Positions 3,036 to 27,690 of a stretch of DNA of 64,000 bases are shown here, one piece after another (position 1 is the first letter of the stretch; every line of letters begins with the position of its first letter). A program made the position numbers and the translations under genes. Under the pieces are notes generated by a model that was given only the letters and a program-made list of their open reading frames with translations, was not told the DNA's origin and did not search any database. The DNA is from Paraflavitalea soli (GTDB lineage: Bacteria > Bacteroidota > Bacteroidia > Chitinophagales > Chitinophagaceae), in NCBI RefSeq assembly GCF_003555545.1, contig NZ_CP032157.1:1864546-1928545 (forward strand), in the 5' to 3' direction.

Positions 3036-4403
3036 TCAGACTAATCGCCTCATGTGACTTATCTCTTTTGTGAGGTGTTTATCGAGGCAAAAGTTAAGAA
3101 TAACGATTCTCACAATGAATATAAAATGATTGATTCTAAATGTAGTACTATTAATAATTGGATCAAAGTCGCGTTGATTGGGTATACCTACCAGTGGCAA
3201 TGCTTTCCCGTGAACAATATCTGACCTAATATCATAAAAGTATCCTATCATATTTGTTATGCTATCATTCCCTTTAGTCAAATCTCCAGAATAATCCTTC
3301 ACCAATGTTAGTACCTTTTTTTTGATGCTAAATTTCTCTTGGCCACATTCTTTACATTTTTCAGAAGTTTTGTCAATAAGACATTCCAGGGAGGTAGCTA
3401 AAGCTATGATGCAGGAGTACAAATCACCATCTTCTTTCAAAATAGCTTGATTAAACCAATAAGTGCTATTAATCAAATTCTCATTCTCCATAGAAATAAA
3501 TTTATCCATGGCAAAATGCATACATTCGGGAGTGTATAAACTGTAGTCCTCGTAAATCATTGTAGAGTAGTAAGTAGCATTATCCACACTCCCTTCTGGG
3601 AAAATAGCTAGCTTTTCAAAAATAATATCATGATCTAACTCTCTATAATCTAATTTATCTAAAATTCTTTCGGGCAAAATAGTTGAATATCTTTTAAAGA
3701 AAAGCACATTATTGGGTGAATGAAATTCCCCAAGCCGTGATCGGCTAACAGTTCCATAGTGCTCACCACCACTAGTGTTCGCAATCTTTATAGTAATTAT
3801 TAAAACCGTGTTCATGAACCATAGAATCTCAGCAAGTTTTCTGTTTCTTCTGTCTCCATCAACTCGCTCGTGGCTAGAACCGAGATAAGAAAATTCTAAT
3901 ATAGCTGGACAATTCCGATTAATACACAGTTCATTTTTTTCAGCAACTGGCCTTAGAAGAGCAACGTTTCGATATCTTATGTACCTATCCTTTAAAAGCA
4001 CAGATGTAAATACAATCTCACTACTAAATTTAGAAACGTGTGCTAGCAAATTTGTTTCAACACTATTGATTATTTTTTTCATAATCACCAAGTCCTCGTA
4101 TTCAAAACTGAGCACTTTGCCTGCATTTGAATAAACTAATCTTAAGGCAGGACTGCTCCCTAATTCCTGTCCAGATCCGTAAACGATTTCTTTCTTATCT
4201 GACTGTATTGCCCAGTTATAAAAATCACTTATTATAATATGCAATTCATTAGGGTTGCACTCGTTAAGTTTTTGCAAGTATTTAGACTCAAGCTTCATAT
4301 ATAGGCTATTAAATCCTAGGCATTTTCTGAATACATTTACACTATGGATTATTCTGAGAATAAAACCCCTAAGAAGTTTTTTCACATTCTTTACCACTTT
4401 CAA
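3036..4403 (-). CDS. Uncharacterised protein with Apea-type HEPN C-terminus
   Basis: A 455-aa cytoplasmic protein with no signal peptide. The C-terminal part has a two-Cys-pair knuckle (CKECG) and then DIRSDIVHGKAL, the R-x(4-6)-H signature of HEPN domains of the Apea-like type. Many HEPN proteins are RNases or nucleotide-transfer partners in conflict systems, but this is not shown here. The N-terminal 250 residues are unfamiliar to me. Base composition is clearly richer in A+T than the neighbours, with many AAA, ATT and TTT codons, which suggests recent acquisition. It stands alone, with about 430 bp of equally AT-rich sequence upstream. Confidence 0.7.
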   Translation of the reverse strand: MKVVKNVKKLLRGFILRIIHSVNVFRKCLGFNSLYMKLESKYLQKLNECNPNELHIIISDFYNWAIQSDKKEIVYGSGQELGSSPALRLVYSNAGKVLSFEYEDLVIMKKIINSVETNLLAHVSKFSSEIVFTSVLLKDRYIRYRNVALLRPVAEKNELCINRNCPAILEFSYLGSSHERVDGDRRNRKLAEILWFMNTVLIITIKIANTSGGEHYGTVSRSRLGEFHSPNNVLFFKRYSTILPERILDKLDYRELDHDIIFEKLAIFPEGSVDNATYYSTMIYEDYSLYTPECMHFAMDKFISMENENLINSTYWFNQAILKEDGDLYSCIIALATSLECLIDKTSEKCKECGQEKFSIKKKVLTLVKDYSGDLTKGNDSITNMIGYFYDIRSDIVHGKALPLVGIPNQRDFDPIINSTTFRINHFIFIVRIVILNFCLDKHLTKEISHMRRLV

Positions 4404-11338: not shown

Positions 11339-11926
11339 ATGAAACTTTTTTTACGTTCTTTACCCCTGCTGTTATTGACAACAACTACCTTATTTCTTGC
11401 CTCCTGCGGCAAAGACGGCGATCCCGGTAAAGATGGCGCGCAAGGTCCTGCTGGTTCCAAAGGCGACAAAGGTGATAAGGGTGACCCCGGCGCCGTGGGA
11501 ACCGCCAATGTCATCTATTCCGCCTGGCTCGATGTACCGTACAAGCCCGATACCGTACACCTGGCAGGAGGCGGCATTGATACCATTGGATGGTATGCCA
11601 CCATCGATGCCCCCAAACTGTCCAAGACCCTGCTGGCAACCGGAGAGGTAAAAGTATATGTAAACCTCAATGAGTCTTCTGATCCTGTCATCGCCCCCTT
11701 GCCTTATGTAGACAATAGTGGCATCATTATTCGTTATATCGCCTATGAAAAAGCGATTGAGATTGATTCCAATATTGATGCAGGCACAATTCTTAGTGGA
11801 GGCAAAAAATACCAGCAATACCGTTACGTGCTAATCCCCGGCGGCACACAAGCACGCACCGCCACCGGGAGTGTCGATTGGAACAATTATAAATCAGTAC
11901 AGGCATTCCTCGGTCTGAAAGATTAA
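11339..11926 (+). CDS. Lipoprotein with short collagen-like repeat (paralogue of the gene at 62569-63099)
   Basis: The signal peptide ends in a lipobox (LASC). Directly after the lipid-bearing Cys come about ten Gly-X-Y triplets (GDPGKDGAQGPAG and further GDKGDKGDPG), enough for a short collagen-like stalk. A 130-aa globular domain follows, starting GTANVIYSAW and ending in QYRYVLIPGG. The paralogue 51 kb to the right shares both landmarks with fewer triplets. The protein is expected on the cell surface, with the stalk holding the domain away from the membrane. The function of the globular domain is unknown. Confidence 0.8.
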   Translation: MKLFLRSLPLLLLTTTTLFLASCGKDGDPGKDGAQGPAGSKGDKGDKGDPGAVGTANVIYSAWLDVPYKPDTVHLAGGGIDTIGWYATIDAPKLSKTLLATGEVKVYVNLNESSDPVIAPLPYVDNSGIIIRYIAYEKAIEIDSNIDAGTILSGGKKYQQYRYVLIPGGTQARTATGSVDWNNYKSVQAFLGLKD

Positions 11927-12750: not shown

Positions 12751-13809
12751 CTACTGCTTTACAAATGTCTTCACACCCCATACCGTCTTGCCATCCTCCA
12801 CCGACAGGAAATATTGCCCCTGCACCAGCGTCACCACGTTTAAGGTTGCCTTTCTGCCCGTACTGAGGTGATAATCCTTCTGCATCACCACGCGCCCCCG
12901 CGCATCCGTTATTTTTAGCAATACCTGGTTAGCCGCCACACTGCCACCAAAAGTTACCTGCAGTTCCTTCTCCACCGGGTTGGGCCATAATTGGATATTG
13001 TTATTACCCTGCTCATCGATACTCGCCACCTTGGTATCAGAATACTTAAACCGCTCATCGAGATCGATCTGTTTCAGCCGGTAATAATATTTAATGCCGC
13101 CCACTACGTCCCGGTCCACCCATTCATACGCGCCGCCCGCAAGCCCTTTACTGGCTACCGCGCCCAGCCGCTTGAAGTTCGAAGGGTTACCCTGTTCAGC
13201 GCGCTCCACCTCAAATCCCTTTGCATTGATCTCCTGGTCAGTAGCCCATTGCAGCACGATCGTGCGCTGCCGTGTCGTGGCGTCAAATCGCGTAAGATTG
13301 ATCGGCAGGGCCACCAGCGTGGCGCTGGCCATCACAGCCGGCGCAAAATCTGCCAGGCTCACCCCAAAATTGGGCTCCGTGGTCACATCAAACCCGGTAG
13401 CCACCACATCAAAAGTGCCTACTCCGCTGCCCGTCATCGTGTTGCGTACCGACAATATCTCTACCCAGGTGTTCAGCGTCCAGTTAGCCGGAAACAAATA
13501 GGGTGTTTGGTCTGCGTAGAAAGCCTGGAAATGATAAGCTCCCTGCGTTTTACGTGTGCCCGATTTGGCTACATGATACGTAGTGGTTAGCGTATTCTCC
13601 AGGTCTACATTGTAACTGGACAGCCACCGCAGACCAAATACCAGGTCCGTTACATAGTCCGCCGTAGTGGGGGGCGCACCGGCCGTGATCCGCATTTCCA
13701 CGCCTACCACACCGCCGCCTTTGTTTACCGCCCTGATTTCGTAAGTCTGGGCCGGCAGGCTGATAGCCGCCGCCAGGATCATAATTATTAGAAATAATTT
13801 ATTGCGCAT
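12751..13809 (-). CDS. T9SS type A sorting-domain protein, possible partner of the giant protein
   Basis: The signal peptide (1-20) is followed by a roughly 145-aa beta-rich domain (GGGVVGVEMRITAGAPP, TDLVFGLRWLSSYNV). Its size and strand pattern suit a cohesin-like sandwich. Residues about 175-270 are a fibronectin III-like linker (VLQWATDQEINAKGFEVER, YYYRLKQIDLDERFKYS). The last 80 residues are a T9SS C-terminal sorting domain (WPNPVEKELQVTF, ITDARGRVV, GQYFLSVEDG). It is therefore exported across the outer membrane and anchored at the surface. It starts 13 bp after the giant gene, so they are cotranscribed. The cohesin-like reading is an inference. Confidence 0.82.
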   Translation of the reverse strand: MRNKLFLIIMILAAAISLPAQTYEIRAVNKGGGVVGVEMRITAGAPPTTADYVTDLVFGLRWLSSYNVDLENTLTTTYHVAKSGTRKTQGAYHFQAFYADQTPYLFPANWTLNTWVEILSVRNTMTGSGVGTFDVVATGFDVTTEPNFGVSLADFAPAVMASATLVALPINLTRFDATTRQRTIVLQWATDQEINAKGFEVERAEQGNPSNFKRLGAVASKGLAGGAYEWVDRDVVGGIKYYYRLKQIDLDERFKYSDTKVASIDEQGNNNIQLWPNPVEKELQVTFGGSVAANQVLLKITDARGRVVMQKDYHLSTGRKATLNVVTLVQGQYFLSVEDGKTVWGVKTFVKQ

Positions 13810-13822
13810 CGTGTGTTATTGA

Positions 13823-16800
13823 TCAGTTGGGTAATTGTTGTAAGATCGTCCGGTTGGGCGTAGGCAAGCCTACCACACCAAGTATGATATTCTTGTCATT
13901 CACAGCCCCATTGTACTTCACCGATCCATCCATATTCACATCCGTACGGTGATACAGCGTCAGTACATTGTTGCTCGTGCCCATACCTACCTGAGCCAGC
14001 ACCGCATTCTTATCATTGTTGGTGCCATTATAGCTCACCGTACCATCGCCATTCGCATCACCGGCCCACAGCACCATTACACCCCCCAGGTTGTTGCGCG
14101 CATCCGTACCCCAGGTGGCCGTAGCCGGAGCACTAAAGTCGATCCCGGTAGCCGTGGTAGTATTGAGCGCTAGAGGCGCGGCCGTCATTACACCCAGGTG
14201 ATTGCGGTGGCGGATCGCGATATAATAATTACCATTCGGCATATTATTAAAGTATACAGGCGAACTGCCATCGAGGTCCACAATACTGCCATCGCGCAAC
14301 AGCAGCGCCGATCTGGCTGCTACTACCTGCGTAGGATCAGCAGGGTTGCGCAGCTCCAGCCATATCCAGTCTACCAGCGCTGTATTCCCCGTGATCGCCA
14401 GGCGCGCAAGCGGAATGCTGGCAGCCGGTGTACCTACACCCGTAAATCCAAGAACAGGGTAGGGATCAGTAAGCGGTACCAGTGTTTTCGCACGTAAGCT
14501 ATCCACCATCAGCCCCTGTGCCGCTACATACGGCCCTTGCAGGAAGGCCTTGGCCGATACGATCAGGCCGGCCGGTGCACTGCCCACGATCACCTTCACC
14601 ACATCCGTAGTGAACAGGTGCCCATCACTCACGATCAGCAGCAGGTCAAACGTCTTACCCTGGTCTGCCGCACTCACCCCAAAGCTCGGGTTGGCAAGGG
14701 TTGAATCGCTCAGTGTAATGCCTTCCGGCGCTATCCATTGGTAGGTCAGTACATCCCCATCAGGATCAGTAGAGGTTGATCCGTTCAGCAGTACCGTAGC
14801 CGGTGCAGTGACGTTGATATCATCACCCGCTTTCGCCACAGGCGCCCGGTTGGTAGACAATACCGTCCACGATACCATCACCGGGCCATTACCATACTGT
14901 CCGCTGCTGTATTTGCTAAAGGGTCTTGCATTAAAAGTTAATTGATAAATACCCGGCTCAAGACCCGTTGTGCGAATACCAGATACATTGTATACCGTAT
15001 CATTCAAAGCTGTAATGATCAATCCTGCAGTGGATAACCCGGCGCCATTCCTTGTCAGGCGCATGGCCGTATCCAGTCCCGCGGGACTTAACAGTTTAGT
15101 GGCAAATTTCAGCGGAAGCGTATCCACCTGCCGCGTCAATACAGCGCCACTTGTAAACTGCCATTGCGCAGTGAGCGGTACAGGGTCTACATACAATTGC
15201 ACCATCGCTGTATCGATACCGCCGTTTGCTCCTGTAGCTGTTACACGAATACCCGTATTACCACCATTTTGCAAACTGACCGGCACACTCACATTGCCAG
15301 CTGCTACATTCGCTTCCCTGCTCAGTACAACAGCGCCGCCAAGATCCGTTTGCTCGATCGTCACCTGCGAAGCATCCGCACTCAGGTCAAAGAGTACCCG
15401 CAGGGTATCACCCGATGTAATGCCATCCGTATTGGAGAAGCCCGCATCAGGCGTTACCCGTAGGTTGCTGATCGTGATCAGTGCCGACCGATCCACCGTC
15501 CAGTTCACCGTTTGTGTGCCCGTTCCAAAATTGCCCAGCGCATCTTTCACCAGCGCCATATTGATGCTGAAAGTATAATTACCATCCGGATACGTCAGCA
15601 TGCCGAAGTTGCCGGCTGTCCAGTGTTGCAGGTCTGTATTCGACAACTGTGAAATATTGAGCGGCTGTACGGCACCATTCCAGGTCAGGCTCACCGCTGC
15701 CGTATTGAAACCCGCTACGTTCTCATCAAACTCAATCGTAACAAATGGTATATGCTGTGCATCCAGCCCACCTGTAGCCAGTTTTTCCAGTTTCACCAGC
15801 GTAGGACCGGCATTATCTACCGTCAGCGTGATCGACTCAGTGGCCACACCTGCTACATGACTGGCCGATTGTATATTCGGCAGGTCTACCGTCAGTACAT
15901 AATTACCTGCTGTGGTCAGTATAGTACCGAGACCCGATAAGTAGAACAGCTTATGATCTGCCCGCACACTATCGATCACCAGGCTGCCGCTTTGCAGCAC
16001 ACCATTCTTAGTGATGGTGAAGCGCGCCGGCGTCACCGTAGCTACATCCATCGGCAGATTAAAGAGTACGTTCAGTGTATCGAAAGCTGCCGCAGTACGG
16101 CTGGCCGGTATCGCCAGGAAGGCTTCCACCGTCGGCACATTCAGGAACTGTGTCCAGGTTACTTGTTTGCCTGTTTCTCCCTTGATGCCATAGAGATCAC
16201 TGATCTCAGCTGCCTGCGCCGTAAAGCTATAGAAGCCATTGCCTGTTGTCACACCAGCCAGGTTTACTTTATAAGTAACAGAATCCATCTTCGTGATCAC
16301 CACACTATTGTCGATGATATTCGGTCCGCCCTGGAAGGTCAGCGTCAGGTCTTCCTTCGTAAAGCTGGCCCCATCGATCGCCTTATTGAATACCACCGTC
16401 AGCTCTTTCACTTGTGTGGCCGATACCTGTGCTGGCGCACCATTGATGCTTACAATCGCCGGTACCTCCAGGCTCTTGGGTTTCCATACCAGCGTGTAGG
16501 TCACCGCAGACTGTGTAGAGAAAGTATCTACAAAATGGAATTTATTCTCATACACCGGGGCCCTGCTCACGGGTAACGTCACAAAGGTCAGCCAGGCATT
16601 GTTGAGCGGTATCACCTGCCCATCACTGCGCGTTACACTTTCCAGTTCATATAATTTATTGCCCGGATCATCCAGCTTGATATAATTCCAGCCCGCCACA
16701 GAAGGCATTACCGTAAGTACATTCGTAAAGCCGGGACCTGATACAGGCCCATTGAAACTGCCCGAAGCCGCCGGACTTACCTTGGCCGTCTTATTGCCTT

Positions 16801-19800
16801 GCGAGAAGTACAGCATATCCGGTACATCATCCACATCAAAGAGATCGTTGACAAGGAAGTCCGTAATACCATCATCCAGGCTGCCATACACTTTCACACT
16901 TCGTGTCAGCTCATGCAGTTTGATACCTTTCACCAGGCTCAGGTCTGGATTACCAAAACTGTTCGCATGTACCACATTCGCTTCATAGCTTACAAACTTG
17001 CCCAGCAAAGAGCTCGTAAAGTACCACTGGCCAATCTTTGTAGAGAGCGCCGGCACCGTGCCAAAATTGATATCCGTTACACCCAGGTTCTTGGGCTGCC
17101 CCTGCAGGTTCGAACCGATCAGGTTGAAATTAATGGCCAGGCCCTTCTCGTTTTCGATGATCTTGGGTTGCGCCGAAGAGATCATCATGTTTACCGCAGG
17201 TCCATAACCCTGGTTCTCTACCATCACAGCCAGCTCAGCAGGCACTGATGGTTCAATAGCAGGATCCGTCAGCGGATCATCACCCAATATATTCCGTTGC
17301 ATAAAGTAATGCAGCATCAGGTTGGGGCTTGGGTTCACCGTCAATGGCACCTTCGAAAGCGGCATATCCACCATCCCCTTCGCATAAGGGTCCCAATACC
17401 GCACCGTACCGCTGAAGTTGTACACCTTCGGCACCGTTGGCGCCGCACCCGGCTCTGGTATGAAGAGGAATTTCACACTGCCCTTTTGTTGCGACGCGAT
17501 GATACCTGTACCCGTCACATTCGGCAGGTTGGTCAGACTCTTCGTTTGTATCTCAAACAGCCCGTTACTTGGTACACCGTTCTCATCAGTGATCTGCAAC
17601 GTCACACTCAGCGAATCCATTGCATCCGTCGGGTGACCGTTAAAGATCTCCAGCGTGCCTTCAAACGCTTCCCTGGTCATCGTCAGCGTTTGACTGAACT
17701 GTACTTTCACCGAAGCACATACAGTTGTCTTGCTTTGCTCTTCCAGTATCCGGTCCAGGTCCGCACGTACTTTTCTATACATGTCATCGATCGACTCATA
17801 TCCCCTGTCGATAGAAGTATTGTGCGCATCCACCAGCGAATCTGAATAACTCTTCACCTTCATCCAGTTGATGATATCAGGATACTGTGCATTGGGCGTC
17901 AGGATACCCTGACTGCGCGCATACACCGAAGTATTCCACCGCGCAAAGAACGCTTGTAACAAGGCCGGTGAAATATCATAGCCCGTCATCGCTGCCAGCA
18001 CCGTAGCCTGTTTGTCCGGGCGGATAGAATCCACATTAGATAAATAAGTACCGATCAATGGCTTCAGGTCCCGCCACGCATCATTATGAAGAATATCTCC
18101 CAAATACAGCTCAGACCATTTCTCACGCAGGTCATAAGCATGCATCACAAAATCAATGTCATCCCGTATCTGCAGGAACACCGCATTCAGTTGATCCGCA
18201 GCACTGCGTGCACTCGACTTATTCATCATGCGACCGCCAACATCCGTTCCCATGCAGCTCGTAATAGCCTCTTTAATGCTCATCGGGCATTTGATCCAAT
18301 CCGGTGTTGGATCAGGTGTGAAACACTGGATATAATCGATGATGCTGCCATTTACCAGTTTCGTTTTCGCAACACAGGTCATGATACCACCCACACCGCC
18401 GTCCGGCACACCACAGTCAAATGCTGCATCGATCATGTCAAGGATACACTTCATACAGCTCGACTTCTCATCCGTATAGGCTGGCGTATTCCCTGAGCCA
18501 CCACCACCGCCCGGCAGTTCACAATACAGGCAGGGAATATTGAAATATAGACCATTGCCGCCATAGGGCAGGCTGCCGCCACCCACTAAAGGCTCCGTAC
18601 CGCCTCCGGGAGGTCCCGAACAGACACGCCCTTTATAATTGATCAGCGTACCTACTTTTTGCCACAGTCCCGTAGACAGTTCACACTTGTACACATACAA
18701 TACAAACGTATAGTCTGAGCAGGTCATGCCGCCACTGCTGCCACGCGCACTCAGGCCCAGCGCAGCCAGCGAAGTGCCCATTTTGCCGCCAGGCAAGGGC
18801 ACCCCGCGCCGTTTCATGATCACCGGTATCTGAATGCTCTGCTGGGCATTGAGCGTACCCGCCACATAATTCGTCACAAATTCATATTCCACATCCTGCG
18901 TAGGCAGGTTGAGTTGTACATTTTCAGCTGCAATAAGACCATGATTCGTCAGCGTTACATTGAACGCATACGTTTCAGTACCCGATAAGGCCGGCATATC
19001 CTTCGGCATATCGATCGTCACCACCGGCATCGGCACATTCGTCTCAAACTGCGTTACCAGCGTCACATCATATTGGTCCTGGATCGCTGTAGGCTCTACC
19101 GTCCAGCTGAACGTGATCGCCTGGTAATTCAGGAACACACTCGTAGCCGTCGTATCACCCGGATTGATCGTGATCGTGCCATTATAAGGTAAATGCTTTT
19201 CTTTCTCTACTACAATACGGTGCTTGCCTTCAGGGATATTGCCCGCGGCAAACACTCCAGCAGCATCCGTATTGCCTTCTGCATATACATCACCTGTAAA
19301 ATAATTCCTGATCTGTACATGAGCGCCGCTCACCTTCGGAGCATCCGCCGCATAGAATGTAAATTGATTCGTCACCGTTACTTTCACCGCACCTTTCGAT
19401 TCCGCTTTTTTCTCAAAGCTGAAAGGCACACTAAAGCTGTTGCCATTTTGCACTGCAATGCCCACACTGCCCGTAATGGGATAGTTAAAAGGCACTTCCG
19501 GCAGCGCCTTGAACTTCAGTACCACGATGGTCGTATCGCCCGGGCCAATAGCCGGCAAGGCAAGCGGGGTCACACTGCTCAGCCAGTTCACCTGCGGCAG
19601 GTTGATATTGATAGCGCCCGTGCTGCCTGCCCCCTTATTCACCAGCATCAACGTAGCCAGGCGCTCGCCAATGCTTTGCGATACCGTCACATCGATCTTC
19701 GTGATATCTGACACCACATAGGCCTGCTGGGCCTGACAGAAGTAGAATACACTATTCACAGCCTGCACAATGCCTTCTGTAGCCACCGCCTGTAAATTGA

Positions 19801-22800
19801 CGGCCTCGAAATAATTACCGGTTGTTAAAGCCTTGCCCACAACCGTGTAATGCAGGTCAGCACTGGCATTGCCCGCCAGCAGCGCGATCGTGTCATAACG
19901 GATCACCGCCCCATTGGGTAGGCTCACCGCCTTCAGCGTAAAGTTGGCCAGGCTCTTATTGCTCAGGTTCTTTACCGGCAGGTTGCCACGCAGCGTATCA
20001 TTCAAAAATACTTTGTACTGCACGGGGTTATTGTTATTGATCAGCACACCCAGGATATCAAAATTATCCTGCTCTGCAGTAGCACCAAGGCCAGGGAAGC
20101 ATGCACCCACTATATAGTGGCCCGCCTCATTGCCCAGCGGCTCAAACTGCGTGCTATAATGTCCCGCTGCATCGGTCGTTGCGCTCAGCACACGCCGCAG
20201 ACCGTTCGTGATCACATATACCTCTACTTTCGTATTGCCAGCCACCGCGCCATTCGTCTTGGTAGCTACACCAGTTACCGGAATATTTACTCCTTTAAAG
20301 AAATAAGCCCCATCCACCACAGCCGTAGCTGTATAATCAGGACTCACCACCACTTGCACAGGCTGCGAAGTATTGTTGGTCGTCAACAACTCTTCCATAT
20401 CCTGGTCCGGGTTCACCTCATAGATCAGCTTCCAGTTGCCCGGCAGGTTCGGCATCTGCACCGCATTCACCACCTGCGCACTTTGGCCCGCAGGTATAGC
20501 AGCAGCAATGATGTCTTCCGATACCAGTGTATCTGCCAGGTCAAACACATCATCTTTGGAAAGATAACCGCGCACCTTAATGCCGCCCGGAGCCGTAGAG
20601 AAACCAGTATTTGTCACTGTTAACTGGTAATTGAAGAGGCTCATCGCCTGCACCGTTGCATTGGTAAGTTTTGCCAGCGGCACTTGCAGGTCCGGCTTAT
20701 TACGGTCCGATACCATCACCCACACCGAGCCCGTAGCAAATCCATTGGCTGTAGCATGGAAATACACCTGCTGGTTACCATCCGCTACATTATCATTGAT
20801 CGTCGTCACCGGCACATCTACATAAGACTGACCGGCAGCGATCACCACCGAAGGTGGCACAGTAGCCTCATTCGTATTCGAAGAGGTAAGGTTCACCAGC
20901 ATGCCGGATGTAGTAGCCGTATTGCGCGTCACTCGGATCGTACCCGCATTACTCAATCCCTCCGGCAACGTCAGTACCGGAGCTGTCAATGTCAGCGTTT
21001 GTCCATCATTATCACTAATAGTAATATTCGTAGATACAGAGCCGGCTGTTGAAGGAGGCGCGCTGCAACCACAGCTGTTCACAAATACAGCCGCAGTGAT
21101 CACTACTACACGTTCTCCATCCGCCAGCGTATTATCGATAACACCTACATTAAACGTCTTTTCATTTTCATTGGCTGCCAGCGAGATCGTAGCAGGCATT
21201 ACCAGTGTATTAGGTGCACTGGCCGATAAATTCACACTAAAGGCCGCATTCGTACTGCCGGCAGTACGACGCAACGTAGCCTTTGTGGCATAAGCCCCTG
21301 CTCCTTCAGAAATAAGATTGCTTAGCAATACCAGCTCCAGGTTGGGCAGGTCATCATCCTGCACCGTGATCGTACCGGTGGCCGCCGTATGATTGGCCGC
21401 ACCCGCATTGATATTCACCGGCACCGCAATCTCTGGTATATTGTCCTGCGCCAGCGTCACCGGCACATCCACAAACAGCGCGCCGGCAGGTATCGTCACA
21501 GAAGCCGGTACCGGGAACCGTGCCTGGTTATCTGAAGTAAGGAATACCGATAGCGAAGCTGCAGAGCTCAGGTTCGTGCTCACCCGGAAATTCACCGTAT
21601 TGCCTTCCATCACAGTGGCCGGCAGGTTCGTGATCGTCAGGCTCGCCTGGTCATTGTCCAGCACCTGTAATGTTACTTTCCCTGCTCCATAGCCCGCAGC
21701 ACTCGCTTGTATACTATCATTCAAATTGCCATCCAGCGCCGCATTGTCAGGAGCCGCCACGGTAAACGTGGTGCCCGCCTGACCGGCAGGAACGGTCACC
21801 GTAGCCGGTAAGGTAAACCGCGTTGGGTTCGATACCGCCAGGTTTACCGTCAATGCTGCGTTGATAGCCCCCGTTCTTTTCACAGATCCTGTCACCACAG
21901 GACCGCCCTCCGTCAGTTGATTGGAAGAAAGCTCCAGGCTCAGCAATTTGCTGGTGCTCCACGGAGTTGCCTGCACACCGGTATTATTGGCTGTAGCCCC
22001 GGGAGTTTCCTGCACCGTAGCGCCGGGTACCAGTTCCACCACAAACACACCCTGCGCACCAATGTCAAACAAAGCAGGAATGGTTACCGCCACACTGCGG
22101 TTCACCGATCCCCCTCCGGCAAGTATGGCCCCATTCGTATAATTGACCGATTGTATCAATGTCCTGTTTCCGCCAGCCGCCGACTGCATATAGATACGCT
22201 CTGTCCAGTCAGATGGAGAAGAGCCCGTGCCCACATTAGCCACCGTCCAGTTGATCGTAATCACATCATTAGGCCCAACAGTCGTAGCAGCAGATGCCAC
22301 ACCCTGCACCGCCAGGTCAGGCGTTTGTACTACTACAAAGGTATCCGTCACCTCAGCAGCTGCCAGCCAATTGCTATTACCCGCCTGGTTCACCTTGACT
22401 ACCACCGTACCCGCATTCACGATCGTAACCGTGTCGCCCGATAGCGTAGCAATGCCTGCCGGGTTTGTCACCAGTGCCAGGCTCACAGGCAAACCAGAAG
22501 AGGCATTCACCATTAATTTAAAAGGAGCACTGCCCACAGCCTTATCGGGCGTAGCTCCCAGCGAAATAGTTTGTGCTGCCTTTTGGATTGTAAGATCCGC
22601 GCTGTCCTTACCGGCATAATTGGGATGACTGATCGTAGCCACTACCTTATACACACCCGCATTCGCCGGCGCGCCAGGCACGCCATTGAAGGTCAGGCTC
22701 ACAGGTAATCCTGCCGGATTGGTAGTAACAGTTGGTGTTCTCTGCGTGCCATTGTATACCTGTACCAGGTTGCTGAAGCTCAGCGTGGCAGCGATCGGTG

Positions 22801-24883
22801 TCACTATAATACTGATCTGCGTGGTGGCTTCATTATAATTCTCATTACCCGCCTGGAAAGCCCGCACCACAATAGTGCCCGCACCATTGATCACCAGCGT
22901 ATCGTGTTTCAAAGTACCCGGACCACTCAATACCGTATAAGTAATAGGAAGACCCGAAGTCGTAGTTGCCTGCAGCACCACTTCACTGCTGCTGCCAAAT
23001 AATATATCAGGCACAGCAGGGAAAGTGATCGTCTGGTTTTGTCGTTCACCCACAAATACCACCGGGTTCGATTGTGGTCCCGCACCGCAACTATTCGTAT
23101 AGCTCACCGTGTAGCTGCCTTCATCCGCCGCATTCAGCGTATTGCCCGTGGCTCCGTTAATGGCTCCGCCATTCTTGTACCACTGGTAGCCCGTAGCGCT
23201 GTCTGCAGGCGTATAGGCAGGCGTACTCAGCGTACGTCCGCTGGTATTGACCACCGGCTTCGTTTGCGGCGCCCTGCCAAATAAAAATACATTAAAGTTC
23301 ACCGATGCACTGCCGCATGTATTCGATACAGTGAGGCTTAACACGTGAGGTCCGCCCGCTGTCCAATGGGCTACCGCTGTTCCCGCCGTAGTATCCAGCG
23401 TGCCGCCGCCATCCACCGTCCACACATATTTATACTCCGGTCCACTGAGATTATTGACCGTATACGTTTGATCCCCTACGCAGCTATTCGCAGCACCATT
23501 AATGCTGAAGTTGGCCGGCGTGCGCATGATGCGCAGCGCCGTACCATTCGCGCCGCTGGTATCATTGGGCGAACTGCCAATTACCCGGATACGATACCCA
23601 TTGCCCGCGCCTATTTGGGCGGGGATGATGGCATCGATCGTATCGGAATTAAGCCCCGTCAGGGTGCCGATATTGGTCGGATTGCCAAAGTTGCCATTGG
23701 CATCCGACAACTGTGCTGTAAATATATTGTTGCTGCCGAAAGGCGCATTCACCGCAAACGGTACCGCTACAGGACCGCCCGCACACAGCGGACCCGTAAT
23801 ATCGCCAATCGTAATAATGAGTTCAGTAGGAGGCTCTACCTTGAAGCTGCCCAGGTTGGTCAGGCTCCAGGCGCCCTTCGCATCGATGGCGCGCAGGTAG
23901 AGTTGGTGATTGCCCACAGACACAGTAGCCATGTCGAGCGCAAAGTTGATATTATTGAGGTCTATGCCCGGTGTCACCGGTACATTGGTACCCTGGCCAA
24001 ATCCAGGGTCCGTATCTACAAAGTATTCCAGCTTCACAATATTCGAAGGCGTATTATTGCCAGTCACAGCTGCTTCTTTGTAGAAGCTGAGGTTATTCGT
24101 AATCGTCCATTTACCATACGCATCTTTAAAGCGCGTATACAGGCGGTGGAAACCCGCAGTAAGCGAGGTTATATCAGCCGTAAAAGCAATCGTTGACAGG
24201 TCGATGCCTGGCGTTACAGGTATATTCACACCACCGCCAAAACCGGGATCGGTATCAAAATAATATTCTCCCTGCACTACATTGGGCAGGGTGCCGGAAG
24301 GACCAGCCAGGTTCTCTTTATAGAACATCCGGGTATTGGTCTGGCTCCAGGTACCATCCGCATTTTTAAACCGTACATACAAACGGTGAAAACCGGCTCC
24401 ATAGCCGGTAATATCAAAAGCAAAAGATACATTCGAAAGATCCAGTCCCGGTGTCAGGGGAATCCCTGTACCCCTGCCAAAACCAGGGTCCCCATCTACA
24501 TAGTACTCACCGGCCACAACACTCGACAGGGAACCGTTTGCTGTGGTAAAGTCTTCTTTGTAAAAAGAACGCACATTCGTCAACGACCATCCGCCTTTAG
24601 TTACCGGCGTTCCGTTTTCTGTCACCTGGTAAGGAGGAATAAAACCGCGTGTATACAGATTGTGGAAGCCCGCCGTCAAAGCATTGATGTTTACCTGGAA
24701 ACTCGCTGTTACATCCACACCCGGGGTTACCAGCACCGTGGTGCCGTTGCCTGGCCCGGGGTCCGTATCCATAAAATATTCAACCTTGGTCACCGATTGC
24801 GCCTGGACTTCCGTCCACACACACAATCCCAGGATGAAAATGGCAATCGTATATTTATACGCCTGTTGTAGTAAGGTTCGCAT
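13823..24883 (-). CDS. Giant 3686-residue surface protein with CARDB, Calx-beta, Ig-like, PKD and dockerin-like modules
   Basis: Signal peptide 1-29. Residues 30-350 hold four tandem 80-aa repeats (EYYVDTDPGFGxG ... AGFHxLYxRFK ... FYKE). After PKD/Ig-like parts comes an MBG-like domain (698-767). Then come a CARDB domain (about 855-970), Calx-beta-type repeats (about 980-1395, e.g. TITNLPATVMEGN) and a second CARDB (1400-1510). A carboxypeptidase-regulatory-like domain lies at about 1835-1912, and a Cys-rich Gly loop region at about 2050-2220. Bacterial Ig-like repeats span about 2800-3300, and a PKD-like domain 3345-3435 (STDPDGDVLTYQW). The end (3607-3686) has two calcium-loop motifs, GDANGDGTVSYNG and DVNMDGSVKYNG, as in dockerins. 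No T9SS CTD is seen. An adhesin or scaffold role is likely. It is not interrupted by any frameshift. Confidence 0.9.
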   Translation of the reverse strand: MRTLLQQAYKYTIAIFILGLCVWTEVQAQSVTKVEYFMDTDPGPGNGTTVLVTPGVDVTASFQVNINALTAGFHNLYTRGFIPPYQVTENGTPVTKGGWSLTNVRSFYKEDFTTANGSLSSVVAGEYYVDGDPGFGRGTGIPLTPGLDLSNVSFAFDITGYGAGFHRLYVRFKNADGTWSQTNTRMFYKENLAGPSGTLPNVVQGEYYFDTDPGFGGGVNIPVTPGIDLSTIAFTADITSLTAGFHRLYTRFKDAYGKWTITNNLSFYKEAAVTGNNTPSNIVKLEYFVDTDPGFGQGTNVPVTPGIDLNNINFALDMATVSVGNHQLYLRAIDAKGAWSLTNLGSFKVEPPTELIITIGDITGPLCAGGPVAVPFAVNAPFGSNNIFTAQLSDANGNFGNPTNIGTLTGLNSDTIDAIIPAQIGAGNGYRIRVIGSSPNDTSGANGTALRIMRTPANFSINGAANSCVGDQTYTVNNLSGPEYKYVWTVDGGGTLDTTAGTAVAHWTAGGPHVLSLTVSNTCGSASVNFNVFLFGRAPQTKPVVNTSGRTLSTPAYTPADSATGYQWYKNGGAINGATGNTLNAADEGSYTVSYTNSCGAGPQSNPVVFVGERQNQTITFPAVPDILFGSSSEVVLQATTTSGLPITYTVLSGPGTLKHDTLVINGAGTIVVRAFQAGNENYNEATTQISIIVTPIAATLSFSNLVQVYNGTQRTPTVTTNPAGLPVSLTFNGVPGAPANAGVYKVVATISHPNYAGKDSADLTIQKAAQTISLGATPDKAVGSAPFKLMVNASSGLPVSLALVTNPAGIATLSGDTVTIVNAGTVVVKVNQAGNSNWLAAAEVTDTFVVVQTPDLAVQGVASAATTVGPNDVITINWTVANVGTGSSPSDWTERIYMQSAAGGNRTLIQSVNYTNGAILAGGGSVNRSVAVTIPALFDIGAQGVFVVELVPGATVQETPGATANNTGVQATPWSTSKLLSLELSSNQLTEGGPVVTGSVKRTGAINAALTVNLAVSNPTRFTLPATVTVPAGQAGTTFTVAAPDNAALDGNLNDSIQASAAGYGAGKVTLQVLDNDQASLTITNLPATVMEGNTVNFRVSTNLSSAASLSVFLTSDNQARFPVPASVTIPAGALFVDVPVTLAQDNIPEIAVPVNINAGAANHTAATGTITVQDDDLPNLELVLLSNLISEGAGAYATKATLRRTAGSTNAAFSVNLSASAPNTLVMPATISLAANENEKTFNVGVIDNTLADGERVVVITAAVFVNSCGCSAPPSTAGSVSTNITISDNDGQTLTLTAPVLTLPEGLSNAGTIRVTRNTATTSGMLVNLTSSNTNEATVPPSVVIAAGQSYVDVPVTTINDNVADGNQQVYFHATANGFATGSVWVMVSDRNKPDLQVPLAKLTNATVQAMSLFNYQLTVTNTGFSTAPGGIKVRGYLSKDDVFDLADTLVSEDIIAAAIPAGQSAQVVNAVQMPNLPGNWKLIYEVNPDQDMEELLTTNNTSQPVQVVVSPDYTATAVVDGAYFFKGVNIPVTGVATKTNGAVAGNTKVEVYVITNGLRRVLSATTDAAGHYSTQFEPLGNEAGHYIVGACFPGLGATAEQDNFDILGVLINNNNPVQYKVFLNDTLRGNLPVKNLSNKSLANFTLKAVSLPNGAVIRYDTIALLAGNASADLHYTVVGKALTTGNYFEAVNLQAVATEGIVQAVNSVFYFCQAQQAYVVSDITKIDVTVSQSIGERLATLMLVNKGAGSTGAININLPQVNWLSSVTPLALPAIGPGDTTIVVLKFKALPEVPFNYPITGSVGIAVQNGNSFSVPFSFEKKAESKGAVKVTVTNQFTFYAADAPKVSGAHVQIRNYFTGDVYAEGNTDAAGVFAAGNIPEGKHRIVVEKEKHLPYNGTITINPGDTTATSVFLNYQAITFSWTVEPTAIQDQYDVTLVTQFETNVPMPVVTIDMPKDMPALSGTETYAFNVTLTNHGLIAAENVQLNLPTQDVEYEFVTNYVAGTLNAQQSIQIPVIMKRRGVPLPGGKMGTSLAALGLSARGSSGGMTCSDYTFVLYVYKCELSTGLWQKVGTLINYKGRVCSGPPGGGTEPLVGGGSLPYGGNGLYFNIPCLYCELPGGGGGSGNTPAYTDEKSSCMKCILDMIDAAFDCGVPDGGVGGIMTCVAKTKLVNGSIIDYIQCFTPDPTPDWIKCPMSIKEAITSCMGTDVGGRMMNKSSARSAADQLNAVFLQIRDDIDFVMHAYDLREKWSELYLGDILHNDAWRDLKPLIGTYLSNVDSIRPDKQATVLAAMTGYDISPALLQAFFARWNTSVYARSQGILTPNAQYPDIINWMKVKSYSDSLVDAHNTSIDRGYESIDDMYRKVRADLDRILEEQSKTTVCASVKVQFSQTLTMTREAFEGTLEIFNGHPTDAMDSLSVTLQITDENGVPSNGLFEIQTKSLTNLPNVTGTGIIASQQKGSVKFLFIPEPGAAPTVPKVYNFSGTVRYWDPYAKGMVDMPLSKVPLTVNPSPNLMLHYFMQRNILGDDPLTDPAIEPSVPAELAVMVENQGYGPAVNMMISSAQPKIIENEKGLAINFNLIGSNLQGQPKNLGVTDINFGTVPALSTKIGQWYFTSSLLGKFVSYEANVVHANSFGNPDLSLVKGIKLHELTRSVKVYGSLDDGITDFLVNDLFDVDDVPDMLYFSQGNKTAKVSPAASGSFNGPVSGPGFTNVLTVMPSVAGWNYIKLDDPGNKLYELESVTRSDGQVIPLNNAWLTFVTLPVSRAPVYENKFHFVDTFSTQSAVTYTLVWKPKSLEVPAIVSINGAPAQVSATQVKELTVVFNKAIDGASFTKEDLTLTFQGGPNIIDNSVVITKMDSVTYKVNLAGVTTGNGFYSFTAQAAEISDLYGIKGETGKQVTWTQFLNVPTVEAFLAIPASRTAAAFDTLNVLFNLPMDVATVTPARFTITKNGVLQSGSLVIDSVRADHKLFYLSGLGTILTTAGNYVLTVDLPNIQSASHVAGVATESITLTVDNAGPTLVKLEKLATGGLDAQHIPFVTIEFDENVAGFNTAAVSLTWNGAVQPLNISQLSNTDLQHWTAGNFGMLTYPDGNYTFSINMALVKDALGNFGTGTQTVNWTVDRSALITISNLRVTPDAGFSNTDGITSGDTLRVLFDLSADASQVTIEQTDLGGAVVLSREANVAAGNVSVPVSLQNGGNTGIRVTATGANGGIDTAMVQLYVDPVPLTAQWQFTSGAVLTRQVDTLPLKFATKLLSPAGLDTAMRLTRNGAGLSTAGLIITALNDTVYNVSGIRTTGLEPGIYQLTFNARPFSKYSSGQYGNGPVMVSWTVLSTNRAPVAKAGDDINVTAPATVLLNGSTSTDPDGDVLTYQWIAPEGITLSDSTLANPSFGVSAADQGKTFDLLLIVSDGHLFTTDVVKVIVGSAPAGLIVSAKAFLQGPYVAAQGLMVDSLRAKTLVPLTDPYPVLGFTGVGTPAASIPLARLAITGNTALVDWIWLELRNPADPTQVVAARSALLLRDGSIVDLDGSSPVYFNNMPNGNYYIAIRHRNHLGVMTAAPLALNTTTATGIDFSAPATATWGTDARNNLGGVMVLWAGDANGDGTVSYNGTNNDKNAVLAQVGMGTSNNVLTLYHRTDVNMDGSVKYNGAVNDKNIILGVVGLPTPNRTILQQLPN

Positions 24884-26435: not shown

Positions 26436-27506
26436 TTAAACCAGCAGGGAAGGATTGCAGGCAAATTCTTCAAAAGAATATTTCGTATAGTTTACGCAAC
26501 CTCCCAGGAATCGTCGGTAACGGTACATCTCTTCCTTTATAGCAGGCTCCTTTTTACCATCATAGTTATTAACCACACTCACTTTGAATGGTTTGCCCGG
26601 CTTCCGGTTTTTCTGTATGCGTTTAATGAGGTATTTTACATGAATATCCGCATCGGGAAATGAATAACCACAAAATACCAGGTGCTCAGCTTCCAGGAGA
26701 TGTGCTTCCGTTTTGTTCCAAACCTGGCTCAGAAATACATTCGAAAGGTTCTTATAAAAAGTAGGTGGAACTATAATAGGCGCATAAAAAGTGCCACATG
26801 TAGGACACCCTGACTGATCTGGGTCAGTAATAAGGTCTGAAACTCCTTTTTGATAAGGAGTTAACCGTAGATTGTTACAGGTAGGGCAGAATAACCAGTT
26901 GAGCGATCCATGGATCTTAAACAACTTAATACTTTCTTCTCCCTGCCTGGCCAGAAAACCTTGATTGGAATTCACAAAATCAAAACCATAATTGATCTTT
27001 TCTCTACCACGTTCTGCCTGATCCAGCAGCGCATTGTCACATAGAATATCATAGTTGGTAGTCACAAAAAAAATATCTTTCAACTTCCGTAATCGCGCTA
27101 ATTGATTGACCAGTTCCCTATGCAACCTGGCGCGGCGACGTAATTTCTCCTGGAGAATATCTGCCATCAGAAACACCAGGTAGATCCTTAAATAATTGAT
27201 CCTGCCACTATTGGATGTCAGGTTCAATAAAGGGAAATTCCTGAACGACTGGTTGTTCTGGTCGGCCAGGTCAAGAATGCCAAGCGCCTCTTCAAAGGTC
27301 GGAAATTCAATTCCCTCCATACGCTTATTCACCTTGATGCCAAACATCTGGTCAAAAAATCTCGCCAATTCTTTTTCATGGTCTTTACGCCGCCCTCCGC
27401 GCTTTTTGATCATCTCGAAATAGTCCTTAAAAAGGCTCCCTTGCGAAGAAGCTCCTTCCGCAGCCGAGGCGCCGGCTCCCAGGAAAATGGCAGTTTTTTC
27501 TGACAT
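26436..27506 (-). CDS. SIR2-like domain protein
   Basis: The start at 27506 (MSEKTAIF) puts the Rossmann motif FLGAGAS at residues 8-14. TTNYD, LFKIHGSLNWLFCPTC, a second CPTC (together a four-Cys zinc knuckle) and FCGYSFPDADIH are all SIR2-fold landmarks, with the His of KIHGS in the catalytic place. SIR2-like proteins of this kind bind NAD and either deacylate proteins or break down NAD in antiphage defence. No partner defence gene is beside it, and no extra effector domain is present. Length is normal for a stand-alone SIR2_2-type protein. Base composition is slightly more AT-rich than its surroundings. Confidence 0.82.
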   Translation of the reverse strand: MSEKTAIFLGAGASAAEGASSQGSLFKDYFEMIKKRGGRRKDHEKELARFFDQMFGIKVNKRMEGIEFPTFEEALGILDLADQNNQSFRNFPLLNLTSNSGRINYLRIYLVFLMADILQEKLRRRARLHRELVNQLARLRKLKDIFFVTTNYDILCDNALLDQAERGREKINYGFDFVNSNQGFLARQGEESIKLFKIHGSLNWLFCPTCNNLRLTPYQKGVSDLITDPDQSGCPTCGTFYAPIIVPPTFYKNLSNVFLSQVWNKTEAHLLEAEHLVFCGYSFPDADIHVKYLIKRIQKNRKPGKPFKVSVVNNYDGKKEPAIKEEMYRYRRFLGGCVNYTKYSFEEFACNPSLLV

Positions 27507-27690
27507 AATCAACGGTTTGTAGGTTGTAACAAAGATGAATGGCCATTGCCTGCAAAACGACCGCTAAAACACCTTTTCTTGCTGACCGTTTAGCTTAGCC
27601 GCCCAGTTGAATATGCTCCTGCGCCAAACCATTAATAGTGCACCAGACTGGGTATCGAAAGCTAAGGAGATCGTATAATTGGTTACCGGC

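Follow-up and report, generated by a model that had tools for sequence, protein, structure and literature searches.

Within the window analysed here, a stretch of 64,000 nucleotides (nt) from Paraflavitalea soli (contig NZ_CP032157.1), two neighbouring genes encode a giant protein of 3686 amino acids (aa) and a small protein that carries a sorting domain of the type IX secretion system (T9SS). The giant ends in a tail that resembles the X-dockerin of classical cohesin pairs and the small protein opens with a cohesin-like domain. Judged from predicted structures and matched evolution, the small partner looks like a docking socket for the giant and points to an overlooked way of fixing very large proteins to the cell surface. 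The genes and their parts, in window coordinates, are the following.

13823..24883, reverse strand: giant, predicted surface protein, 3686 aa (open reading frame, ORF, and Pfam domains)
24797..24883, reverse strand: predicted signal peptide of the giant, residues 1-29 (translation read by eye)
14084..14569, reverse strand: X-type module of the giant, residues about 3439-3600 (conserved in the 68-row alignment A12; AlphaFold2 model; alignment with X-dockerin chains)
13826..14083, reverse strand: dockerin-like module, residues 3601-3686 (two calcium-type loops; structure match; three relatives pass PF00404)
14012..14059, reverse strand: calcium-type loop 1 (DANGDGTVSYNGTNND), residues 3609-3624 (motif search)
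13895..13942, reverse strand: calcium-type loop 2 (DVNMDGSVKYNGAVND), residues 3648-3663 (motif search)
13810..13822, reverse strand: gap of 13 nt between the two genes (sequence)
12751..13809, reverse strand: small putative anchor protein, 352 aa (ORF)
13750..13809, reverse strand: predicted signal peptide of the small protein, residues 1-20 (read by eye)
13315..13749, reverse strand: cohesin-like domain, residues 21-165 (AlphaFold2 model matches cohesins; same family in genes adjoining other tails)
12991..13308, reverse strand: spacer domain, residues 168-273, fibronectin-III-like by eye (sequence only; no Pfam match)
12754..12990, reverse strand: T9SS type A sorting domain, residues 274-352 (PF18962 and TIGR04183)

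Pfam assigns MBG, CARDB, PKD and PEGA domains to the giant, and neither a cohesin nor an enzyme domain. In its N-terminal part (window 23834-24796, reverse strand) about four repeats of about 85 aa with the pattern EYFxDxDPGxGxG are visible by eye, and these have no Pfam match. An earlier note on this DNA had read two calcium-loop units at the end of the giant and guessed a dockerin-like end; the loops are confirmed and the guess is supported. The giant contains exactly two copies of the motif D-x-[ND]-x-[DN]-G-x-[VIL], one at residue 3609 and one at 3648, both within the last 80 residues, while sequences of shuffled composition contain on average 0.06 copies and two copies within the last 87 residues were found in none of 2000 shuffles. 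The AlphaFold2 model of the tail (residues 3439-3686) has a predicted local distance difference test (pLDDT) score of 96 and shows each loop followed by a helix (H186-194 and H225-233, numbered as in the model), as in the two tandem loop repeats of a dockerin. In the structure comparison the top rows for the tail are X-dockerins, the other half of the classical cohesin pair, and X-dockerin chains align along the entire tail model, with the X-module adjoining the dockerin in the overall fold of type II X-dockerins. The X-module of about 160 aa conserved before both loops, a refinement of the earlier claim, thus indicates an X-dockerin pair and not a lone dockerin. Among ten relatives scanned, three pass the Pfam dockerin model PF00404 (Dockerin_1) with 34.9, 24.2 and 32.2 bits, and canonical-looking loops are present in some relatives of the same tail family. 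The canonical dockerin loop has 12 residues with an acidic residue at position 12. Both loops of the giant depart from it, with Gly at position 12 and Asn-Asp at positions 15-16.

The sorting domain and the 13-nt gap that the note had reported for the neighbouring gene were verified, the former with 39.4 bits for PF18962 (cut-off 27) and 30.2 bits for TIGR04183 (cut-off 23). By its C-terminus the small protein is therefore an ordinary T9SS type A cargo, whose export is predicted given that the T9SS components PorU (sortase) and SprA (pore) are found in the genome. The giant, as had been claimed, matches no T9SS sorting-domain model of Pfam or NCBIfam at E-values up to 1. For the N-terminal domain of the small protein, which the note had taken for a cohesin from its size alone, no Pfam family scores above its cut-off; the predicted structure, however, supports the guess, since the leading matches, 24 rows in Foldseek and 20 in VIA, are all cohesin-bearing chains, among the fold families that either program lists. 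The cohesin beta-sandwich is thus recognizable in a model whose confidence is moderate. PF00963, the cohesin family of Pfam (accession as given in the available text of PMC10266427), is absent from the 16 families recorded at E 0.01 for 80 such partners and does not match the domain of the window alone at E 10, and the partner profile A4 retrieved nothing relevant from the PDB sequences. Given a fold match outside the Pfam family, we name the domain cohesin-like.

The two genes recur together. In this genome three tails are matched by three small anchors, each tail gene directly preceding the small gene with the T9SS signal, and the same order is seen for all four tail genes found in the rest of the genus (four genomes). 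At E 1e-10, 85 of the 298 genomes in the order carry the tail, as do 71 of the 394 in the family. Gene neighbourhoods were fetched around many, not all, of the tail-bearing genomes, and in whole genomes they yielded 139 distinct tails, of which 79 are directly followed by a sorting-domain protein at a gap of -101 to 195 nt, this neighbour being 480 aa or less in 78 cases. The remaining tails are followed by another tail gene in arrays (16) or by an ORF running off the stretch (13), lie at a contig edge (6), or have no following gene or another gene after them (25). Of the ORFs taken from the same loci as controls (71), none directly precedes a sorting-domain protein. The curated models PF18962 (E 0.01) and TIGR04183 (E 0.001) match 78 and 77, respectively, of 80 partners scanned.

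Several features of individual loci deserve mention. Of ten further tail proteins compared with Pfam at E 0.001, seven gave no match, one gave its dockerin alone and two have other domains. In genome G184 there are two arrays of tail proteins (L170 12045-12965 and L172 3693-4613), whose terminal giants share identical last 300 residues and are each followed by an identical 306-aa anchor. In G202 (G202:C1:70434-71255; loci L144 and L190) one tail ends an open frame of 8240 aa and is followed by a sorting-domain protein of 283 aa. The large protein after the paired anchor in L187 (1-3162) also starts with a cohesin-like domain, and in L074, L104, L175, L047 and L052 the frame directly after the tail is not a small anchor but a longer, open-ended one that starts with the cohesin-like domain. 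L101 also contains both a tail and a cohesin-like ORF; it comes from a metagenome-assembled genome (MAG) labelled as the gammaproteobacterial Thiotrichaceae, which would point to misbinning or transfer. In L038 both genes of the pair lie in one frame across two TAA codons (a reading in NCBI table 6).

Co-divergence of the two proteins was assessed with pairwise alignment distances of five domains over 81 tail/anchor pairs, in all ten combinations. This set leaves out partners over 480 aa and the loci L039-L116 and adds by hand L158 and L161, whose neighbours fall below the threshold for the C-terminal sorting domain (CTD); partner domains were cut at fixed offsets from the protein ends and not at modelled borders, and L235, which runs off its contig, was kept in the distance test but left out of the partner scan (hence 80 of 81 scanned). 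The highest of the ten correlations, 0.452, is that between the dockerin and the cohesin-like domain, though these lie on different proteins. It exceeds the correlations within one protein (dockerin with X-module 0.416; cohesin-like domain with CTD 0.176) as well as the others across proteins (dockerin with CTD 0.044, with spacer 0.15; X-module with cohesin-like domain 0.216), where CTD distances are possibly saturated, which would lower the CTD correlations in the full set. With X-module and CTD held, the partial correlation of dockerin and cohesin-like domain is 0.41 (reached in none of 500 permutations), whereas that of X-module and cohesin-like domain, with dockerin and CTD held, is 0.02. 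Without the ten pairs with canonical loops the dockerin-cohesin correlation is 0.455, and among 39 mutually distant representatives it still ranks top at 0.326, with a bootstrap interval of 0.14-0.32 for its excess over the X-cohesin correlation. Nearest neighbours agree between the dockerin and the cohesin-like domain in 42 of 81 pairs, the most of the ten combinations. This domain-specific co-divergence supports a predicted physical binding of the giant's tail to the cohesin-like domain.

On this evidence, we consider it likely that the two genes form a two-part surface fixture, in which a T9SS-borne, cohesin-like anchor holds the giant through its X-dockerin. The small protein would be exported by the T9SS, involving PorU and SprA, be kept at the surface by its sorting domain and display there a single cohesin-like domain. 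According to the available text of PMC11285876, T9SS cargo with a CTD is released, apart from a subset that is anchored through anionic lipopolysaccharide. The giant, which has a predicted Sec-type signal peptide and no sorting domain of its own, would dock by its C-terminal X-dockerin, probably with calcium, into the cohesin-like domain of its partner. Docking would fix the giant to the cell surface, the T9SS anchor replacing the S-layer anchor of clostridial scaffoldins. To cross the outer membrane the giant may either be exported piggyback on its partner through the T9SS, as would follow if docking is periplasmic, or take another route and then dock outside. More tentatively, and perhaps somewhat against the odds, the pair may exemplify an overlooked cohesin/X-dockerin adaptor found across the Bacteroidota, by which small T9SS cargo carries oversized or otherwise unfit proteins in trans, in private pairs in some lineages and with one or few sockets shared by dozens of tails in others.

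Several observations weigh against this fixture. The tail of the giant scores 10.4 bits for PF00404, short of the cut-off of 22.9, and since its link to dockerins is then one of fold and family, it is labelled dockerin-like. Profile A12, built mostly from long-loop tails of the window and related loci, finds no dockerin among the PDB sequences, so that the dockerins in 12 of 14 rows (E up to 10, best 5.8e-4) obtained with profile A3 probably lean on its two canonical-loop rows. On the partner side, the model of the cohesin-like domain is moderate (pLDDT 67, with residues 118-152 under 50) and none of its Foldseek matches has an E-value below 0.001. A within-genome swap test came out near chance (16 of 26 from dockerin to cohesin-like domain, 13 of 26 in reverse), many paralogues being recent copies. 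In a set of contigs, mostly Flavobacteriales MAGs, a sorting-domain protein follows 8 of 102 tails (1 of 151 controls), and five of these eight neighbours are 594-684 aa long, unlike the small anchors; most tails of this set thus appear to have no private anchor. The expectation of the earlier note that the genes stay together in relatives therefore holds for the tail-then-anchor order among paralogues, in the genus and in the order, but not for most of the Flavobacteriales MAG loci. In some genomes tails also outnumber the sockets detected, with 43 tail matches to 2 cohesin-like domains in G525, 100 to 0 in G139 and 63 to 0 in G333, and in G139, G133 and G333 many of the hits to the tail span the X-module while reaching only partly, or not at all, into the dockerin. 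In genomes with 43-100 tail matches the tail might serve another use.

One such use would make the X-dockerin tail itself a sorting or anchoring signal read by outer-membrane machinery, with the neighbour merely a co-regulated cargo. The surplus of tails over sockets agrees with it, as do the position of the tail within 60 residues of the protein end in all 139 whole-genome tails kept (ORFs cut there being skipped) and the QLP in which many tails end. The socket counts themselves carry little weight where they are zero: the cohesin-like domain search, run in ten genomes, found none in five (G120, G133, G139, G184 and G333), and its model overlooked known partners, namely the third one of this genome and the paired anchors of G184. 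In G410 there are 23 tail matches and 5 detected cohesin-like domains. Where tails are many and sockets few, the tail may serve either for one-to-many display or for sorting; as an account of the present pair, we regard the tail as signal as unlikely. The rival accounts overlap among themselves and with the two-part fixture, and the probabilities attached to them need not add up to one.

It is decidedly unlikely that the adjacency reflects an operon of surface proteins that make no contact, their co-divergence being that of fast-evolving domains inherited together. The domains of a pair do all have a common history, the X-module also correlates with the cohesin-like domain (0.216), the 13 within-genome comparisons, a further point against the fixture, are positive for every domain pair with cohesin-CTD (0.94) above dockerin-cohesin (0.88), and saturation may be depressing the CTD correlations of the full set. 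However, inheritance should tie the dockerin to the CTD and the spacer too, where the 81 pairs give 0.04 and 0.15, while the cohesin-like domain reaches 0.45, and the first rank of the dockerin-cohesin combination persists among the 39 distant representatives. A functional pair that binds via other parts, such as the repeats of the giant and the spacer of the partner, the fold matches being generic immunoglobulin-like and EF-hand-like resemblance, is very improbable: the top 20 VIA rows and first 24 Foldseek rows of the partner domain are filled by cohesin-bearing chains and the top rows of the tail by X-dockerins, and with the other domains held, spacer and dockerin show no co-divergence (0.02).

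Clostridial scaffoldins are anchored to the cell surface through type II cohesins, with S-layer modules as the anchor. The two-part fixture proposed here resembles this type II cohesin/X-dockerin clasp (PDB identifiers 2b59, 4u3s and 5m0y) in that a very large protein ends in an X-module and a two-loop dockerin, and the cohesin-fold partner belongs to a protein that brings a cell-surface anchor of its own. It differs from the clasp in that the anchor is a T9SS sorting domain, the loops are longer than canonical, each small partner has one cohesin-like domain, invisible to Pfam, and the giant lacks Pfam cohesins and enzymes. With one small anchor per tail, it is also unlike a cellulosome, in which a multi-cohesin scaffold gathers dockerin-bearing enzymes. 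The partner domain finds its best fold matches in non-cellulosomal cohesins such as the ones from Clostridium perfringens (PDB identifiers 2jh2, 2w1n and 2vo8), which are likewise used outside cellulosomes. Those cohesins, however, belong to glycoside hydrolases of a Gram-positive bacterium that is not known to have a T9SS.

The closest prior idea is, from the available text of PMC8542988, the predicted cohesin scaffold with a CTD in Candidatus Stygibacter (Cloacimonadota), which likewise has dockerin-bearing secreted partners. That scaffold, however, has 3755 aa and tandem cohesins, serves several enzymes and was found by InterProScan, whereas here, in another phylum, a small single-cohesin anchor adjoins one giant, and the domains escape standard detection. 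As far as their available text goes, PMC5831590 states for Bacteroidetes genomes, and PMC6247017 for two cellulolytic species, that cohesin, dockerin or scaffoldin proteins are lacking, and Pfam dockerins are listed in a few Bacteroidales cells (PMC10266427). In the open-licence papers searched, as far as their text was available, we found no account of a dockerin/cohesin pair with T9SS or in Bacteroidota, which is not proof of absence. A diverged cohesin-like/X-dockerin pair recurs here across the order, just under the reach of standard domain models, and would explain the surface retention of giant proteins that have no T9SS signal. It would also offer many naturally matched docking pairs (81 collected) for engineering and enable a direct test of T9SS export of a protein bound to its cargo.

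Two other genes of the window may be mentioned. A SIR2-like protein (PF13289) is encoded at 26436-27512 on the reverse strand and is a possible defence gene, and the small protein encoded at 11339-11926 on the forward strand has a collagen-like stretch that narrowly misses the Pfam cut-off.
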